Source: Hymenobacter radiodurans
GTDB lineage: Bacteria > Bacteroidota > Bacteroidia > Cytophagales > Hymenobacteraceae
DNA: 64,000 nucleotides
Assembly: GCF_004355185.1 (NCBI RefSeq)
Contig: NZ_CP037922.1
Span: 1,798,001 to 1,862,000 of the forward strand
Direction: 5' to 3'
The notes beneath the pieces are model-generated. The model did not search any database and had not been told where the DNA came from. It saw only the letters and a list, made by a program, of their open reading frames with translations. The translations under genes and the position numbers were made by a program. Below, piece after piece: positions 4,195 to 21,396 of this stretch; the first letter of the stretch is position 1, and every line of letters begins with the position of its first letter.

Positions 4195-4644
4195 TTAAGC
4201 TATGGCTTTTAGGGGGCTTTTTCGTGGGCTAGGCTGCGGGCCAGAATCTGCTGGTCGGCCGTCATTGTATTTCGGATCGTAGGGAATGAAGCCGAACAGA
4301 TAGAGCATAATAGCCCGGGAATAGCGCAACGTAATCGGGGCCGTGACCAAAACGAAACCAGTGACCATCAGCACGTATACCCACACCGCCGGATCATTGA
4401 ACAGGTAGTAGGTTGCTACGCCGCCTACGGCAAAACACGCTACCGAAAAAGCGTAGCTCACGAACATTGCCCCCCAGTAGAAGCCGGGCTCGGGCTCGTA
4501 GACTACCTCGCACACGGGGCATCGCTCGGGCATTACTGCATACTTCGTGAGGTTGTAAGCAGGGTAGGAGAACAACTTACCCTGGTGGCACCGGGGGCAG
4601 CGCAAATCCAAGAGGGCTAAGGTCGAAGAATCAATGGGTTTCAT
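4195..4644 (-). CDS. DUF983 family membrane protein
   Basis: 149-residue protein of the DUF983 family, function unknown. The N-terminus has a zinc-ribbon-like pair of CxxC motifs (LRCPRCHQGKLF and PERCPVCEVVYEPEPGFYWGAM), followed by two hydrophobic segments (about residues 60-85 and 90-110) and a short polar tail. The ATG at 4644 was chosen because it starts directly before the conserved region; an upstream in-frame ATG at 4677 adds 11 residues with no family likeness. It stands alone. Confidence 0.88.
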   Translation of the reverse strand: MKPIDSSTLALLDLRCPRCHQGKLFSYPAYNLTKYAVMPERCPVCEVVYEPEPGFYWGAMFVSYAFSVACFAVGGVATYYLFNDPAVWVYVLMVTGFVLVTAPITLRYSRAIMLYLFGFIPYDPKYNDGRPADSGPQPSPRKSPLKAIA

Positions 4645-5323
4645 AATAAGTTGATTATGAATAATTTGATAGTGCAAAGATAACTATGGTACACTAGCCA
4701 GGTAAGACACAAACTCGGGCAGTTACCGCACAAATCAACGATCTGGTCTTTAATCGCCTTCTATAGAATTTACAACTGTAACTGCCGCATTTGTTCCTAC
4801 AAGTCCCACGTTGCTACTATTTGCCACGGCAGGTATTAGCTACTGGTAAGGTTATAAATTCATGATATAATAATATATATTATTATATTTGTTATATATT
4901 GTAATAATGTGTATTATTGTTCACTAGATCCACCAACTAGTAGACTAGGAGATTATACCCGCTAGTCTACCACACACCTATCAACGGACACTCAGCGGCG
5001 CGCTGCAGTAGTAGGTCTTGGCAACATATTGCCAGGTGAGGATGAAGTAGGCTATCTGTTCAGTAAGTACGGACTCCACGTCTCCGTAGCGAAGCAAGAA
5101 AATCTCTGATCAGTACTGCCCAATCTTGTCAAGTGTGCCTTTGGCCTGGCGTAAGGTTAGTTGGGCAGCATTCCTACGTCAGAACTATTGTAGCCACTGA
5201 GGTTTTGGGGCTGCTTGCTGAGTCCTGTGTTTAGGCGTTTGATGCAAGCGCGAACAGCTGCTTAGTGACTAAACATTAGTGGCTGATTTAGATGCAAGTC
5301 ATTGTTTACTAGTCGTTGGTATC
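4645..5323. other. Long non-coding region upstream of the protease-nuclease cassette
   Basis: About 680 bases with no convincing gene. It contains a perfect 24-base AT-only palindrome (4865-4888), a further AT-rich tract to about 4920, and a 9-base inverted repeat (GTAGACTAG at 4940-4948, complement at 4962-4970). Composition differs strongly from the surrounding GC-rich genes. It may hold regulatory signals for the cassette, or be the scar of an insertion; neither can be shown here. Confidence 0.5.
4865..4888. repeat. Perfect 24-base AT-only palindrome
   Basis: The 24 bases read identically on both strands and contain only A and T. They sit between the divergent DUF983 gene and the protease-nuclease gene. 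They could extrude as a cruciform or bind a dimeric protein; no G/C-rich stem or adjacent T tract supports a terminator. Confidence 0.7.
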
Positions 5324-5379
5324 ATGGCAACTCCACATGGTAAGGCATCCAGTTCCCCCAAGCGGTGAAGGATGACTTC

Positions 5380-7218
5380 ATGGATAAACTCAAGAAATTT
5401 GTGCGTACTCGCGGGGCAGATTTCCTTGCTGACCCAAACATTACTTCCGTGGGTATCGGGTACAAGCAACAGGATGGTAAGACCACGGATACGATTTCTA
5501 TTCAGTTTACGGTGGAGCAAAAGACTGGGCCTGATGTGATTCTAGAGAGATTGAACACGAAAAAAATCCCCAAATGCTTTCTGATCGACGGCCAGGAAGT
5601 ACCCACTGATGTAATTGAGCGGAGCTACCAGCCCGCTTATCGGCGCGTACCAATTGCGTTAACCAGTCCGCGCAAGCAGCGCGTCAACCCCATCGTGCCC
5701 GGCATAAGCGTAAGCCACGCCAAAGGCATGGCCGGCACCATCGGGTGCATTGTATATGACCAGCACAGCGGGGCGCCCTATATTCTCAGCAACTGGCACG
5801 TGCTACACGGCCCTGGGGGACAAATTGGTGATGAAGTAGTGCAGCCTGGGCTTTACGATGATAACCGGGTGGCGCAGAACCGGCTGGGTAAGTTGGTGCG
5901 CTCGCACCTAGGGGCCGCCGGCGATTGCGCGATAGCCTCCATCGAGGGCCGCAACTTTCAGGCTGATATTCTTGATCTGGACGTAGCCATCGACGAGATA
6001 GGCGAGCCGGAACTGGGAGATACGGTGATCAAAAGTGGTCGTACCACGGGTGTAACGCAGGGGGTGGTCACGCGCATACATACCATTGCCCGCATCAATT
6101 ACGGCGGGCTTGTGGGCAATCAAGCCATAGGGTGCTTTGAAATCGGCCCCGATCCGGCCCACTTGCCCGCTGATGGAGAGATAAGTAAGGGCGGAGACTC
6201 GGGTGCGGTCTGGCTATTTAAATCGGACAGCGGACGCACTACGCGCATCATGGCGGGGCTGCATTTCGCGGGCGAAACGGCCGGCTCCCTTCATGAGCAG
6301 GCGTTGGCTTGCTACGCCAAGTCGGTGTTTGAGAAAATGGAAATCAGCCTCAGCGCGCCCACGCTACTTCAGCAAACAGTAGAGAATCAGCTAGCGCACG
6401 GCTATGACGCAAAGTTTTTGGGACCCACCGTGTCCGAACCTAAGCTTACCGTGGCGGGGCGCAACAATGCCGTGGGCGCGGCTGGCGGTACCGAAGTGAT
6501 ACGCCACACGCATTATTCGGTGGTCATGCATGCCGAGCGACGTTTTGCGATGTGGGTGGGGTGGAATATTAATGGGGGGCAAATGCGCCGCATCAACGGC
6601 AACGGCATTGACTTTGGGCTCGACCCGGACGTTGACCCCAAGTATCAGGTGACCGACAAACTTTATGCGGGCAATCGCCTCGACCGCGGCCACCTGGCCC
6701 GGCGCGCCGATTTATGCTGGGGCAGCGAAACAGAGGCCCAGCAGGCCAATCGGGAGTCGTTCTATTTCACCAACATCACGCCGCAGATTGAAAACTTTAA
6801 TCAAAGCAGTCAGGGTGGTATTTGGGGTAAGCTGGAAAACGCCTTGTTTGCCCAAGTACATGTGCAGAACCTGCGGGTAAGCGTGTTTAGCGGTCCAATC
6901 TTCCACGATGAAGACCGCACATATCGCGGAGTGCTAATACCTCGCGAGTTCTATAAGGTGCTGGCTTACATGGTGAGCGGCAAGCTACGGGCCCAGGCAT
7001 TCTTGCTCACTCAAAATATTGAAGGGCTCGAATCCATTGATCTGGAGCAGTTTCGAGTGTATCAGGTCAAGCTAGGAGAAGTAGAAGGCCGCTGCGAATT
7101 CCGGTTTCCTGAAATACTCAAACGGGCTGACGGCCTCAGCAAACATGTGGCTCGCAGTATCGGGGTAGCCACGCCGCGTCCGCACCTCAGAGCGCTGGCT
7201 GATATCAAATGGTACTAG
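5380..7218 (+). CDS. Trypsin-like serine protease fused to DNA/RNA non-specific endonuclease
   Basis: Two enzymes in one chain of 612 residues (numbering from the ATG at 5380). Residues 1-90 are a small alpha/beta domain (NITSVGIGYK...SIQFTV). Residues about 105-320 are a trypsin-fold protease with catalytic His140 (ILSNWHVLHG), likely Asp182 (AAGDCAIASI) and Ser274 in GGDSGAVW. A 40-residue linker leads to a beta-beta-alpha-metal nuclease of the NUC1 type, with DRGH at 435-438 (His438 the general base) and FYFTNITPQIENFNQ, whose Asn binds the metal. There is no signal peptide or membrane segment, so it should be cytoplasmic. The true start may be the ATG at 5324: one extra C in C5 at 5355-5359 would add a 19-residue N-terminus beginning MATPHGKASSSPQAVK. 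A subtilase and an I9-like protein follow. A self-cleaving or protease-released nuclease is inferred, not shown. Confidence 0.88.
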   Translation: MDKLKKFVRTRGADFLADPNITSVGIGYKQQDGKTTDTISIQFTVEQKTGPDVILERLNTKKIPKCFLIDGQEVPTDVIERSYQPAYRRVPIALTSPRKQRVNPIVPGISVSHAKGMAGTIGCIVYDQHSGAPYILSNWHVLHGPGGQIGDEVVQPGLYDDNRVAQNRLGKLVRSHLGAAGDCAIASIEGRNFQADILDLDVAIDEIGEPELGDTVIKSGRTTGVTQGVVTRIHTIARINYGGLVGNQAIGCFEIGPDPAHLPADGEISKGGDSGAVWLFKSDSGRTTRIMAGLHFAGETAGSLHEQALACYAKSVFEKMEISLSAPTLLQQTVENQLAHGYDAKFLGPTVSEPKLTVAGRNNAVGAAGGTEVIRHTHYSVVMHAERRFAMWVGWNINGGQMRRINGNGIDFGLDPDVDPKYQVTDKLYAGNRLDRGHLARRADLCWGSETEAQQANRESFYFTNITPQIENFNQSSQGGIWGKLENALFAQVHVQNLRVSVFSGPIFHDEDRTYRGVLIPREFYKVLAYMVSGKLRAQAFLLTQNIEGLESIDLEQFRVYQVKLGEVEGRCEFRFPEILKRADGLSKHVARSIGVATPRPHLRALADIKWY

Positions 7219-7604
7219 CAAAGATGGTAACGGCCATCAATTTGCTTTCATACATAAAATATTGATAAATAGACTATTAAGATAAAAGCATGCTTCTAGA
7301 TAGGTGGCAGATACCCCATCTTCAGCCGGGACTAAAAAAATGTGCGAGCGCTCACTACGAACACATCCTATTGGCAACTCTTCCTACTCACAACCCAATG
7401 CCATGGACCCCTAATATGCTTCACTCTAAAGGCTGCCTGCCGCGCTAAAGCGTAGGGCAACTCTCCCTCAGCTAGTCGGAACCGGGCTTACAGTGCGCCA
7501 ACGGCGCGGAGAGCTACGGGCATGAGAAGTCGTGTCGAACGATGTAGCGGCTTCTGCATAAATACCATTAAACCAACGTAATACGAGTTACGACTTTATC
7601 AATC
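7219..7604. other. Non-coding gap between protease-nuclease and subtilase genes
   Basis: 386 bases without a usable reading frame, AT-rich in the first 70 bases and GC-rich near 7440-7530. No terminator-like hairpin with a T tract was found. It probably carries the subtilase promoter, so the two genes may be transcribed separately. Confidence 0.4.
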
Positions 7605-8975
7605 ATGGCAAAGAATAAGAATGGTTCTGCGAATAGCGCAGGAAACACGAATGCCTCCTCATCTGTGGATGAGCTACTGCTGGCGGCCCTTGAGCGCGGC
7701 GACGATAGTTTTGAAACGGGCCGCTACCTAGTCACCTTCAAAGATGGCGCCGGCGACCAGGGCCTACAGTCCCTCGGTACCCAGGGCATGCGGGTGGCCG
7801 ATGCCCGCGATTTTGATGGGCAGGCGGCTACCCTGGAAAATATTGGCGACGCCGACGCCGTTGTGTTTCCGGAAATTGGGGTGGCACTTATTGGCGGAAA
7901 TGCCGCGCAGGAGCGGAGTATGGGCGCGCAGATGGAAATTGCCAGTGATAGCCCCATTGAAATCATTGAGCCTGAGCATTTCGTGTTCGCCGAACAGTTT
8001 TTCAGAGAGGCAGCGTACCTGTCTGCTACCAAAACTAATGGCAACGGCTCAAATGGCGGCGGGGTTAATGAGTATCTGCGGGGGTTTCTGGAAGCTACTG
8101 ATACTATCACAAAGCACCTGCAACATGGCAAGGGCTACACGGAGGTAGATGAACTGGACGAAGAAACCATGGTGCTGGGTGCCACCTGGGGACTGAACGT
8201 ATGCAAAGTGCCCCCCAGTCTGCGCAGTGGCCTTGGCATACGGGTAGCAGTGCTGGATACGGGCTTTAACATTGGGCATCCAGACTTCGTGGGACGCCCT
8301 ATCATTGGCGCAACCTTCGTGGGCCAGCCAGTGCAAGACCTGCATAGCCATGGTACGCATTGTATTGGCACCGCGTGCGGACCCAAATCGCCGGCGGGTA
8401 CCACTCCACGCTACGGTATTGGGTACCGGTCCTCCATCTTTGCAGGCAAAGTGCTGAGCAATACCGGGTCAAGTGTTGGTGGAAGTGTGCTGGCGGGCAT
8501 GAACTGGGCCATTGCCAACCGCTGCCCCGTAATTTCGATGTCGCTAGGCGGCACGGGAGGTGTACAGGCTGCCTACACGGCCGCGGGCCAGGCTGCCCTG
8601 AATAATGGGTGTCTTATCATTGCTGCCGCAGGGAATAGCAGCGGCCCTACTGGCTACCCCGCTAACTCACCCACAATTATGTCGGTAGCCTCGCTCGATA
8701 TGAGTCTGTCGCCATCTTCATTCTCCAACTTTGGTAAAGTTGATATTGCTGCTCCTGGTCGCGATGTGTTCTCGTCAGCGCCTATGCCACGCCGGTATAC
8801 TACCATGAGTGGTACCAGCATGGCTACTCCACACGTAGCCGGTTGTGCGGCATTATGGGCCGAGACATCACCAAACATGCGGGGCCTTACCTTGTGGCGG
8901 CGGCTGCAGGCGTCAGCCAAACGCCTGCCATTCTCCACAGCACGGGTCGGTGCCGGCTTAGTACAGGCTCCCTGA
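7605..8975 (+). CDS. S8 family serine peptidase (subtilase), no signal peptide
   Basis: 456-residue subtilisin-type protease. The catalytic triad is Asp218 (VAVLDTGFNIGHPDF), His249 (SHGTHCIGTACG) and Ser405 (MSGTSMATPHVAG), with oxyanion Asn344 (AAAGNSSG). Residues about 38-100 (GRYLVTFKDG...VVFPEIGVALIGG) resemble an I9-type propeptide, followed by an acidic segment to residue 195. The N-terminus is polar (MAKNKNGSANSAGN), so unlike most subtilases it appears to stay in the cytoplasm. It ends soon after the catalytic domain. The I9-like gene lies 90 bases downstream and is probably co-transcribed. It is likely to process itself or the neighbouring protease-nuclease, which is inference from context. 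Confidence 0.93.
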   Translation: MAKNKNGSANSAGNTNASSSVDELLLAALERGDDSFETGRYLVTFKDGAGDQGLQSLGTQGMRVADARDFDGQAATLENIGDADAVVFPEIGVALIGGNAAQERSMGAQMEIASDSPIEIIEPEHFVFAEQFFREAAYLSATKTNGNGSNGGGVNEYLRGFLEATDTITKHLQHGKGYTEVDELDEETMVLGATWGLNVCKVPPSLRSGLGIRVAVLDTGFNIGHPDFVGRPIIGATFVGQPVQDLHSHGTHCIGTACGPKSPAGTTPRYGIGYRSSIFAGKVLSNTGSSVGGSVLAGMNWAIANRCPVISMSLGGTGGVQAAYTAAGQAALNNGCLIIAAAGNSSGPTGYPANSPTIMSVASLDMSLSPSSFSNFGKVDIAAPGRDVFSSAPMPRRYTTMSGTSMATPHVAGCAALWAETSPNMRGLTLWRRLQASAKRLPFSTARVGAGLVQAP

Positions 8976-9065
8976 AGCAGCGGCTGAGATTAAATACGTA
9001 ACTTAACTAGCATAGCCACCGGCTGACCGTAGCTGGTGGCTATGCTACTAACAGGAAGCTTCTAT

Positions 9066-9305
9066 ATGGCTGCAAAAAAACGATGGACAGTCACCATGTC
9101 TGGTGAAAAGCCTCTGTCTGAGGTAACAAAGCATCTACGCGAAACAGGATTTGATGTCGATCAGGTGCTGGACGTAATTGGCTGCGTGACCGGAACCGCA
9201 AACGACGACGTGGCCGCCCGCCTACGGAAGCTGCCTGGCGTCGCGGCCGTTGAGGCGGAGCCGGGGATAGATATTGGGCCACCTGATGCTCCTATCACTT
9301 GGTAG
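9066..9305 (+). CDS. Small I9 (subtilisin propeptide/inhibitor)-like protein
   Basis: 79 residues with the alternating strand-helix-strand-helix-strand pattern of stand-alone inhibitor I9 domains: KRWTVTMSG, a helix SEVTKHLRETG, VDQVLDVIGCVTGTA, a second helix DVAARLRKLPG, VAAVEAEPGIDI, and a Pro-rich tail PPDAPITW. The pattern strand-turn-TGTA then KLPGVAAVE is what such domains share. ATG 9066 is preferred over the upstream ATG at 9036. It probably folds or restrains the subtilase encoded just upstream, which already carries its own I9-like N-terminal segment. Similar small proteins are sometimes mis-annotated in databases as aldolases; nothing here supports that. Confidence 0.72.
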   Translation: MAAKKRWTVTMSGEKPLSEVTKHLRETGFDVDQVLDVIGCVTGTANDDVAARLRKLPGVAAVEAEPGIDIGPPDAPITW

Positions 9306-9393
9306 CCCTAGCTATTCTAAAACCCTAACGAAGTCAGTAGCTACCTATCTGTTTGTTCCTCTCTCCTTCGTTCCGCAGAAGGTGAGAATGATA

Positions 9394-9451
9394 ATGCCTC
9401 CTTTATAAAGCTACCGTGACTTTAGCGGTCAGGGCTTTATGAAGGAGGCAT
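9394..9451. terminator. 18-base near-perfect inverted repeat after the cassette
   Basis: ATGCCTCCTTTATAAAGC (9394-9411) pairs with 9434-9451 with one mismatch around a 22-base loop. It has the shape of a terminator for the subtilase/I9 unit, but there is no clear T tract after it on the plus strand, so a processed RNA structure or repeat is also possible. Confidence 0.5.
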
Positions 9452-9564
9452 CGTGTTGATAGGGGGCTATCTGTATTGCAGGATGAAAAACTAAATACTC
9501 TTTAGGTAGTGTGCAGCCCAAAATTTTGGGGAGCAAAAGTGCCACTTCCGCTACCTTAGCCGCT

Positions 9565-11148
9565 ATGCGCTACATCCTGCTGTTTGTCCTGCTGCTATTG
9601 GCTCAAATCACCTCGGCCCAAATCCAGAAAGCTGATATTCTTATCCGCAATGGCCGCCTCTACGACGGTACCGGCAATACCTGGACCTTGGGCGACGTAG
9701 CCATCCGGGCGGGCCGCATCGTAGCCGTAGGCCGACTTCCAGTCAACTACCCGGCCGATACCGTGCTGGATGCGAAGGGCCTGGCCGTGGCGCCGGGTTT
9801 TATTGATGTGCACACCCACATCGAAGACGACGAGGTGCGCCAGCCCACCGCCGATAACTTTATCTACGATGGCGTAACGACCGTGGTAACCGGCAACTGT
9901 GGCTCCTCGCGGTTGCCACTGGGGGGCTATTTTCAAACGCTGGACAGCCTAAGATTGTCGGTGAATGTCGCATCGTTGATTGGCCATGGCACCGTCCGCA
10001 AGGCTGTGATGGGCCGGGCGCAGCGCACGCCCACTGAAGCTGAGCTACAGCGCATGGAAAGCTTGGTAGACAGCGCCATGCTGGCCGGTGCGGTGGGATT
10101 ATCGTCGGGGCTGATTTACATTCCCGGCACTTATTCACGGACGCCTGAGCTAGTTCGCTTGGCGCGGGTAGCGGGCCGTCGTCAGGGCCTCTACGCTACC
10201 CACATGCGCAACGAATCCGACAGCGTCACCTTCTCTATCCGGGAAGCGTTGCGCATCGGGCGCGAGGCTGGGCTGCCCGTCCAAATTTCTCATCTGAAGC
10301 TGGGTGGTCAACAAAACTGGGGACGTACTGCCGACCTGCTCACGCTAATTGAGGATGCCCGCCAGGCTGGCCAGCAAGTCACCATCGACCAGTACCCTTA
10401 CACTGCCAGCTCCACTTCCCTAAGCACGCTGCTCCCCGACGACGTGCAGGCCGATGGCCGCGACTCTCTGCGCGTTCGGCTGGCCCGCCCCGCGGTGCGC
10501 AAGGCCGTGGAAGCTAGTATGGTAGACCGGCTGCGCCGCCGCAAGCTCAAGCACTTTAGCTACGCCGTAGTGGCTAGTTTTCCGCCCGATACTAGTTACA
10601 ACGGCCGCAGCATTGAGGAAATCAACCGCATGCGCGGCGGCCGTCACAAGGCCCGCGCCGAGGCCGCTACCATCCTCGACCTAGTGCTGCAATATGATGC
10701 GGGCATGGTGTTTCATGGCATGAGCGAAACGGACGTGCAAAACATCATGCGCTACCCGCAAAATATGGTGGCGTCCGACGCCAGCATTCGGGTGTGGCAG
10801 CAGGGCGTACCGCATCCCCGCGGCTACGGCTCCAACGCCCGCGTGCTAGGTTATTACGTGCGTGAAAAGCACGTTTTGACGCTGGAAGAAGCCATCCGCC
10901 GCATGACCAGCCTGCCCGCCCAAACATTTGGCTTCACTAACAGAGGCTTACTACGGCCCGGCTTTGTGGCTGATATTGTAGTCTTCGATCCGGCTACCGT
11001 AGCTGACCGGTCTACCTTCGAAAAGCCTCACCAGTACTCCGTAGGTATGCAATACGTGCTGGTAAATGGCCGCCTCACCCTGCGCGATGGACGCCATACG
11101 GGAGCCCGTGGGGGACAAATTCTGTATGGCCCTGGCTGGCAGCAATAG
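9565..11148 (+). CDS. D-aminoacylase-type amidohydrolase (N-acyl-D-amino-acid deacylase family)
   Basis: Metal-dependent amidohydrolase of 527 residues. The ATG at 9565 starts a signal peptide (MRYILLFVLLLLAQITSAQ), so the enzyme is secreted to the periplasm. The beta-sandwich strand ADILIRNGRLYDGTGN and the metal motif APGFIDVHTHIEDDE are diagnostic, followed by GVTTVVTGNCGSS, YATHMRNES, PVQISHLK and the late aspartate region NMVASDASI. The family hydrolyses N-acyl-D-amino acids or related dipeptides. The usual role is salvage of D-amino acids or cell-wall fragments; the actual substrate is not predictable. It stands alone, convergent with the amylase gene 17 bases downstream. Confidence 0.9.
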   Translation: MRYILLFVLLLLAQITSAQIQKADILIRNGRLYDGTGNTWTLGDVAIRAGRIVAVGRLPVNYPADTVLDAKGLAVAPGFIDVHTHIEDDEVRQPTADNFIYDGVTTVVTGNCGSSRLPLGGYFQTLDSLRLSVNVASLIGHGTVRKAVMGRAQRTPTEAELQRMESLVDSAMLAGAVGLSSGLIYIPGTYSRTPELVRLARVAGRRQGLYATHMRNESDSVTFSIREALRIGREAGLPVQISHLKLGGQQNWGRTADLLTLIEDARQAGQQVTIDQYPYTASSTSLSTLLPDDVQADGRDSLRVRLARPAVRKAVEASMVDRLRRRKLKHFSYAVVASFPPDTSYNGRSIEEINRMRGGRHKARAEAATILDLVLQYDAGMVFHGMSETDVQNIMRYPQNMVASDASIRVWQQGVPHPRGYGSNARVLGYYVREKHVLTLEEAIRRMTSLPAQTFGFTNRGLLRPGFVADIVVFDPATVADRSTFEKPHQYSVGMQYVLVNGRLTLRDGRHTGARGGQILYGPGWQQ

Positions 11149-20014: not shown

Positions 20015-21396
20015 ATGGCTTCCAATAAGGCGCGCGTTCTGGTAGTAGATGACGACCGTGATGTACTGTTCGCGGTTAAGCTGCTGCTCAAAACTGAGGT
20101 GCAGGAAGTAGTGACGGAACGGAATCCGGAAAACCTGCTTTCCGTGCTGAGCCGTCAGTCGTTCGATGTCATCTTCCTAGACATGAACTTCAAAAGCAAT
20201 GTGGGTACCGGAAACGAAGGCTTGTATTGGCTGAGCCGCATCCTGGAGCGCGATAAGGACGCCACCGTAATTATGATCACCGCCCACGGCGAAATCAGCA
20301 CGGCCGTACGCTCCTTGAAAGCCGGCGCCACCGATTTCATTGTGAAGCCCTGGCACAACGAGAAATTCCTGGAGACTCTGCACGCTACCCTGCGGCACAA
20401 AGCCACCAAGACCAGTTCGCTGCCCCAAGCGCCCAAGCGTCCCGGCTCCTTCGCCGACATAACTATGCTGGGCAACTCGGAGCCCATGCAGGAGCTATTT
20501 CACACTATCGAGAAAGTGGCGCCCACGGAGGCCAACGTGCTGCTATTAGGTGAAAATGGCACTGGTAAAGAACTAGCTGCCAAGGCGCTACATCAGCGCT
20601 CGTTTCGCGCTAGTAAGCCCTTTATCACCGCCGATCTGGCGGCTATGAGCGAAGGCATTTTTGAAAGTGAGCTTTTTGGTCACAAAAAAGGCTCGTTCAC
20701 CGATGCCAAAGACGATAGGGTAGGGCGGTTCGCCGCGGCTTCTACGGGCACATTATTTCTGGACGAAATCGGCAATATCTCGCTGCCCCAGCAGGCCAAG
20801 CTGCTGACCGCTCTGCAAAATCGGCAGGTGATTCCGCTGGGCAGCAATACGCCCGTGCCTATCGACATACGGCTCATATCGGCCACCAACGTGCCAATTT
20901 ATGAGCTGGCCGCCAAGAATCAGTTTCGGAAAGACTTGATTTACCGTATCAACACGGTCGAAATAACCTTGCCCCCCTGCGTGACCGCGGCGACGATATA
21001 CTCATGCTGGCCCAGCATTTTGCGGGCTTGTATGCGGCGCGCAACCACAAGCCTCGCCCCGAATTTGAGCCGGCTACGCTCAAGAAACTTCAGCAGCATC
21101 GTTGGCCCGGCAACATTCGCGAACTGCAACACGCTGTGGAGCGCGCCGTCATATTAGCCGAAGGGCAGGTGCTACGCCCTCAAGACTTTAGCTTCTCCGC
21201 GATGGAAACGCCACGAACCGCTGGGGGGCAATTTCTGCCGGATTTCGCCGATGGCCCGTTGCAGCTGAATGAGATTGAGAAGAACACGATTCTGCGGGTA
21301 ATTGAGCGCCACAATGGAAACATTACCAAGGCGGCCAAAGAGCTCGGCCTTACCCGCACCGCCCTCTACCGCCGTCTGGAAAAGCATGACCTTTAA
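20015..21396 (+). CDS. Sigma-54-type (NtrC family) response regulator, frame broken in this sequence
   Basis: Response regulator with a receiver domain (RVLVVDDDRD, phospho-acceptor near Asp56 in DVIFLDMNF), a central AAA+ domain with Walker A (LLLGENGTGKE) and Walker B (TLFLDEIGN), and a C-terminal Fis-type HTH (HNGNITKAAKELGLTRTALYRR given in parts: NITKAAKELG and LTRTALYRRL). The frame breaks at C6 (20972-20977); a seventh C restores ITLPPLRDRGDDILMLAQHF and joins both halves into about 460 residues. The loop that contacts sigma-54 reads GSFTDA rather than GAFTGA. It overlaps the kinase gene by 11 bases and diverges from the efflux operon, its likely target. Confidence 0.9.

Follow-up and report, generated by a model that had tools for sequence, protein, structure and literature searches.

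Several described systems join a protease to a nuclease. In the NucA-trypsin conflict systems ('System 3' of Kaur et al. 2020, PMC7159879) a NucA nuclease is combined with a trypsin-fold peptidase, in some cases by fusion, an S8 domain lies inside some of the polypeptides, and a proteolytic cascade that deploys NucA has been proposed. Caulobacter LypC (PMC13236601), a protein of about 660 residues, has an N-terminal trypsin-like domain and a C-terminal endonuclease, and works with the CARD-trypsin-ATPase LypA and the NLR-like LypB. In HamM/Avs1/Canu (Tuck et al. 2025, PMC12799240) a protease unmasks an adjacent nuclease in immunity, and a 2008 survey contains one Tryp-Endonuclease_NS protein, in Fusobacterium. 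Here we describe a locus in the 4.9-Mb genome of Hymenobacter radiodurans, within a stretch of 64,000 nucleotides (contig NZ_CP037922.1, positions 1,798,001 to 1,862,000; the whole stretch is called the window below), in which three neighbouring genes on one strand encode a protease-nuclease fusion, a signal-less subtilase and a 79-residue I9-like protein (Table 1). The trio is best read as a variant of the NucA-trypsin kind in which subtilase and inhibitor have genes of their own. Tentatively, and at somewhat less than even confidence, we favour the view that it is a horizontally moving, signal-less effector cassette, a cytoplasmic module leading from proteolysis to nuclease action in which the I9 protein is the antidote.

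An earlier note on this DNA knew of no established name for the trio. The kind is known, however, both from the NucA-trypsin systems with their proposed proteolytic cascade and from LypC, which has the same protease-nuclease architecture. Three features are new: that the trio forms a mobile insert, that the protease half of the fusion is weakly NAL1-like, and that subtilase and I9 protein are constantly paired, across phyla, beside changing partners. Like System 3, the window fusion has a NucA-type nuclease, here joined to a putative trypsin-fold protease; unlike in System 3, this protease half is not recognised as Trypsin_2, and the S8 protease is encoded on its own, together with an I9-like protein, rather than within the same polypeptide as in some System 3 members. 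EAD1, STAND and transmembrane parts, which occur in a subset of System 3 only, are absent from the three genes of the cassette. The likeness to LypC is one of domain layout, not of directly compared sequences, and the cassette itself holds no counterpart of LypA or LypB. As in HamM/Avs1/Canu, a protease stands next to a nuclease, but the nuclease of those systems has a metallo-beta-lactamase fold and is regulated by sensor proteins. None of the partner genes of the PADLOC 'subtilase' and IetS systems was seen in the cassette.

The trio is a discrete mobile insert that comprises a leader, the three genes and two RNA hairpins, both very stable. The amidohydrolase gene that follows it is present at E 1e-100 in 12 of 61 same-genus genomes searched, the window genome included. 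In one of the 11 other carriers (G910, locus L181) the amidohydrolase gene is directly preceded by the DUF983 gene; in the remaining 10 there was no DUF983 match in the 1.5-kb flank looked at. Window positions 4400-4745 and 9549-9717 align with positions 690-1035 and 1132-1300 of L181, and between the aligned segments there are 96 unaligned bp in the relative against 4803 bp in the window, the ends of the insert being those of the local alignments. This empty site indicates that the trio is one physical insert, and in this respect the earlier description of the genes as a cassette stands.

Table 1. Features of the insert and of its flanks (window positions)
Feature	Position	Strand	Description and basis
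DUF983 gene	4195-4677	complement	upstream flank of cassette
Whole insert (cassette)	4746..9548		4803 bp between DUF983 and amidohydrolase genes; alignment to the empty site in G910 (L181)
AT-rich leader	4746..5364	+	without convincing open reading frame (ORF); GC 0.42-0.48; ORF listing
Fusion, 617 residues	5365..7218	+	N-terminal domain and putative trypsin-fold (weakly NAL1-like) protease ~1-325, linker ~330-343, NucA/Endonuclease_NS nuclease ~344-617
Subtilase, 456 residues	7605..8975	+	signal-less; Peptidase_S8 with complete triad
Strong RNA hairpin	9008..9047	+	interval between subtilase and inhibitor genes, present in L035 too; z -3.7 (window stretch), -4.0 (L035)
Stand-alone 79-residue protein	9066..9305	+	predicted I9 (subtilisin-propeptide) fold; conserved C-terminal PPDAPITW tail
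Strong hairpin at 3' end of cassette	9394..9451	+	terminator-like, no clear T run; z -5.7
Amidohydrolase gene	9511-11148		downstream flank of cassette

The genes proposed in the earlier note proved to be real, with complete catalytic motifs. The start of the fusion calls for caution: the ATG at 5324 opens a frame that ends after 14 codons, the ORF was taken from 5365, and its leader differs by one base in length from that of the Hymenobacter sp. BT188 copy (L035). The closest named copies are from Hymenobacter, with 90% and 76% identity. In 17 aligned sequences, the window's included, the protease and nuclease motifs of the fusion are invariant, and the invariance of the H/D/S motifs in the protease half favours a trypsin-like peptidase. 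Pfam recognises only Endonuclease_NS (E 8e-42) in the window fusion, besides one chance-level match. Among the 17 members weak matches were obtained to NAL1_N (6), Nal1_C (5) and Trypsin_2 (2), with best E-values of 0.003-0.014 and none in the window member, and in a scan of 10 proteins at curated cut-offs the NAL1 matches of fusion members fell below the cut-off; stand-alone relatives of the protease half (L158, L159) exceed that of Nal1_C. When the profile of the family was compared with that of six classical Trypsin_2-NucA-type proteins (hhalign, E 3e-54), only residues 342-593 were aligned, that is, the nuclease with a short conserved preamble (GY..FLG), and the protease half was left outside. 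We therefore rejected full membership of the fusion in the classical Trypsin_2-NucA class; its protease half is no more than distantly related to the classical one, or was fused independently. The four other Endonuclease_NS proteins of the window genome have no such preamble and carry hydrophobic or lipobox-like N-terminal stretches. Ahead of the preamble lies a linker of 11-20 residues that is variable and often rich in proline, a plausible candidate cut site.

The subtilase has the complete D/H/S triad of the S8 fold. For the 79-residue protein the I9-like identity suggested earlier is upheld by the predicted fold, that of a subtilisin propeptide: the model has the order beta-alpha-beta-beta-alpha-beta with a free C-terminal tail and matches subtilisin propeptides and POIA1 (entry 1v5i). 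Sequence searches give less. Pfam Inhibitor_I9 does not match the window protein and matches one of 21 family members, weakly (E 0.023). Against PDB the propeptide matches were weak (E 0.02-1.2) and stood among other weak matches, the best being a designed protein. We also considered that the protein might be a duplicated prodomain of its own subtilase and rejected this, as the profile comparison with the subtilase alignment gave no such match (E 0.096, in another region). From what is known of the two families, the I9 protein probably inhibits the neighbouring subtilase. POIA1 is likewise a small propeptide-fold protein separate from a protease. A propeptide-like inhibitor of the malaria protease SUB1 is reportedly another stand-alone inhibitor of the propeptide type. 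Unlike these stand-alone inhibitors, the window protein is encoded beside its presumed target, and the two occur together in three phyla.

This pairing is constant. In each of the 19 loci examined, some of them plasmid-borne, the subtilase has an I9-like ORF directly beside it, a count in which eight of the I9-like ORFs (L148, L150, L151, L162, L165-L168) rest on position, length and motif rather than on a reported significant score, and which excludes further subtilase genomes found among 49 fusion carriers. A tblastn search of plasmids with the I9 protein found nothing at E 0.01; I9-like ORFs do sit beside plasmid subtilases, so this query is insensitive. Among the papers listed by literature searches that covered few subscription journals, none was recognised as describing a stand-alone I9 gene next to a signal-less subtilase, which is not proof of novelty. 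Two side observations concern the pair: in one relative (L160) two tandem subtilases flank a single I9 gene, and in the same-order relatives L160, L163 and L164 a conserved protein of about 135 residues is encoded upstream of the pair, with no Pfam match in the copy scanned (L163).

The exact trio was found, apart from the window, in three (L035, L060, L072) of 80 fusion loci, 79 of which have a recognised fusion ORF, and these span two phyla. In Arthrobacter (L060) and Pseudarthrobacter (L072) the three genes are adjacent, with an order and strand that differ between the two loci. Members of the subtilase family occur at E 1e-50 in 20 of the 49 fusion-bearing genomes and lie inside the examined fusion flank in 3. 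Three co-located cases far exceed chance, since with 20 kb per genome of several Mb the expected number is, roughly estimated, well below one, with the qualification that the Hymenobacter pair was ascertained and that L060 and L072 are related. More distant subtilases lie in the fusion flanks of L091 (at 3.7 kb) and L062 (at 6.6 kb), and in L079 an ORF with subtilase motifs is found about 0.6 kb upstream of the fusion.

The partners that abut the subtilase/I9 pair are of several kinds. Besides the NAL1-like fusion of the window, L035, L060 and L072, there is a NucA-trypsin/EAD1 operon in genome G043 (L148, 2316-11229), where a related signal-less subtilase, 44% identical to that of the window over residues 174-456 and with an overlapping I9-like ORF, stands about 360 bp away from an operon that diverges from it. 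This operon encodes a Trypsin_2-Endonuclease_NS protein, an EAD1-trypsin protein, an unassigned 361-residue protein and an NTPase-like protein of 960 residues that matches NACHT/AAA and TPR models below the cut-off; we read this as the NucA-trypsin architecture of Kaur et al. On a plasmid of Hymenobacter BRD128 (L152 9293-11970, L169 7010-9687) an S1/P1 nuclease with no evident signal peptide comes next after the subtilase and I9-like ORF, and on a Streptomyces plasmid (L167) a Trypsin_2 protein does so. Genes of the AbiE toxin-antitoxin system were observed a few kb from the BRD128 set. The earlier expectation that the three genes co-occur across genomes is thus borne out in part, by the trio in two phyla, by the constant pair and by the related subtilase beside the NucA-trypsin/EAD1 operon. 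It fails as a general rule: with three of 80 fusion loci containing the trio, and with 12 of the 19 pairs partnerless (see below), the trio is not obligatory.

This raises the possibility that two unrelated modules merely stand side by side, the subtilase and I9 protein forming an autonomous intracellular unit (for protein turnover or selfish addiction) and the fusion being a separate effector. The partnerless pairs speak for such an arrangement, as do the 386-bp gap between fusion and subtilase and the 17 of 20 subtilase-bearing genomes in which the subtilase lies outside the examined fusion flank. The recurrence of the pair beside NucA, trypsin or nuclease genes in L060, L072, L148, L152 and L167, and the single insert shared by fusion and pair, speak for a connection, and we consider two unrelated modules unlikely. 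There is also an extended form of the cassette reading, to which we give limited credence: subtilase and I9 protein may be a hitherto undescribed mobile, toxin-antitoxin-like protease/antidote pair that serves, in at least three phyla, as an interchangeable activator on NucA-trypsin, EAD1-bearing and S1/P1 effectors. The window trio would then be its smallest form, one that has no sensor and is set off by the loss of the short inhibitor.

Other degradative enzymes accompany the fusion. Second proteases are enriched near it: across the 79 loci, 18 of 351 ORFs within 3 kb of the fusion have peptidase motifs, against 4 of 407 at more than 5 kb (Fisher p 6e-4), and the metzincin motif is present in 12 ORFs within 3 kb and in none beyond 5 kb; these counts rest on our own ORF calls of at least 150 residues, some of them spurious, and are not corrected for relatedness among genomes. 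The metzincin ORF of L067 (gene 2) is possibly one of the spurious ones. The Pfam cut-off for astacin or matrixin is exceeded in L036, L043, L053, L072 and L082, and L067 and L062 (M6) fall just below. Pfam further identifies haem peroxidase, papain-like, M6, LodA-like and tyrosinase proteins in fusion loci, patatin-like and M36 proteins are annotated there, and we also recognise a carboxypeptidase-like protein. Most of the enzymes checked by hydropathy have no evident signal peptide. In the archaeon Nitrosocosmicus (L041, L050) the fusion family was observed next to genes for an M6 peptidase and a carboxypeptidase-like protein. The matrixin next to the trio in L072 (7590-9818, start uncertain) has a peptidoglycan-binding PG_binding_1 domain and DUF346 repeats.

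Contractile tail-like clusters lie within a few kb of the fusion in Arthrobacter (L043), Blastococcus (L091) and on a Streptomyces canus plasmid (L121/L136), the sheath assignments being our reading and baseplate J being annotated in L136. By our reading the window genome also has a contractile injection cluster of the sheath/tube type (C2 2053001-2074000; L138, L139), about 265 kb from the cassette. Together with the signal-less enzymes, these clusters keep alive another explanation, namely that the cassette belongs to a delivered or lysis-released effector cocktail, in which signal-less versions of usually secreted enzymes hit a competitor, predator or neighbour after loading into a contractile injection system or release by a lysing subpopulation, the I9 protein being the producer's immunity protein. 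The range of mostly signal-less enzymes in fusion loci, the window genome's own cluster and the wall-binding type of domain in the L072 matrixin are as this explanation would have it. However, a tail gene was detectable within 10 kb in only 2 of the 79 recognised fusion loci (BLAST queries and one motif), and the 27 of 150 genomes of the same family that have a sheath match include both fusion carriers and no more than 2 of the 7 subtilase carriers, so that sheath and cassette genes are not clearly associated. In Nitrosocosmicus, genomes G554 and G555 gave no match to the Pfam sheath model, which is insensitive, since it misses the cluster of L043 itself. That all of these proteins are injection-system cargo was rejected, as sheath presence has no clear tie to fusion or subtilase; the wider idea of a delivered or released cocktail we regard as doubtful, if deserving attention.

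The fusion family has 1838 homologs at E 1e-3 among 8000 candidates scored, many of which may share the nuclease only, and most of the 120 homologs listed are 55-63% identical to the window protein. They come from Acidobacteriota, Actinomycetota, Nitrosocosmicus, a planctomycete, Rhizobium plasmids and others. Near the window the distribution is patchy: a full-length fusion occurs in 2 of the 150 family genomes, the window genome included, and in 1 of 395 genomes of a phylum sample, which is the window genome itself. The subtilase is also rare in the samples, with 4 of 395 genomes at E 1e-60 and 4 of 291 at E 1e-100 (both including the window genome) and 3 of 121 at E 1e-100. A housekeeping or scavenging role, the recycling of nucleic acid and protein from dying cells with no part in conflict, would suit a set made up of degradative enzymes only, in hosts that we read as largely environmental bacteria. 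It sits poorly with the patchy distribution, the plasmid copies, the insertion block and the dedicated inhibitor-like gene, and appears to us very improbable.

In the cassette reading that we favour, the nuclease half of the fusion would be the executioner, tethered by the short variable linker to its own protease half, and the subtilase would be a second, cytoplasmic protease restrained by the neighbouring I9 protein, which may bind like a subtilisin propeptide with its conserved tail entering the active site. The subtilase would be freed by a trigger, such as a phage taking over the cell, or the small inhibitor being degraded or no longer expressed; proteolysis by the subtilase would release or unmask the nuclease, and breakdown of DNA or RNA and of protein would kill or stall the cell. 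In favour of this reading are the empty site, the recurrence of the trio, the constant pair with the predicted I9 fold of its small protein, the different kinds of partner beside that pair, the second proteases near the fusion, and the precedent of protease-activated nucleases of another fold in immunity. The genes, their catalytic motifs, the pairing, the insert and the co-occurrence are observed, as is the fit of the predicted I9 fold. It is pure inference that the subtilase cuts the fusion, that a trigger sets it free and that the outcome is altruistic or directed against phage.

Several results weigh against this reading. In 12 of the 19 subtilase/I9 loci, judged mostly from ORF listings or record annotation rather than Pfam scans, no nuclease or signal-less trypsin partner was seen within about 3 kb, and 76 of the 79 recognised fusion loci have no window-type subtilase in the examined flanks. 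Five Saccharothrix loci (L045, L048, L051, L059, L063) have, 0.4-0.8 kb upstream of the fusion, a subtilase of another type (26-31% identity) with a secretion-type N-terminus, and 4 of the 12 metzincin ORFs, from Actinokineospora, look secreted. Lectin-type repeats or a peptidoglycan-binding domain in the partner enzymes of L072 suggest action outside the cell. In Caulobacter LypC (PMC13236601) the peptidase serine is needed for lysis and the nuclease is dispensable, a caution against taking the nuclease of the window cassette for the killing part. The three-gene cassette contains no sensor or NTPase gene. PADLOC gives no match for the fusion, and for the subtilase only its generic 'subtilase' (E 2e-20) and IetS (E 0.004) models, over the catalytic domain. 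The suggestion of the earlier note that the genes might cluster near known defence genes also found no backing: among 10 window ORFs scanned with PADLOC, all within the first 34 kb, there was no clear defence gene beside the cassette. The sole match among the ten is a regulator at 20015-21157, whose AAA part matches RtcR-like CARF_AAA_HTH models.

If the cassette reading is true, the propeptide trick that silences secreted subtilisins would be used inside the cell as an antidote, coupled to nuclease effectors that are suspected of being fired by proteolysis. The trio would then offer a small, sensor-free test bed of three genes for the proteolytic cascade proposed for the NucA-trypsin systems. 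More widely, it would suggest that effector nucleases have repeatedly been paired with interchangeable second proteases, either a subtilase or a metzincin.

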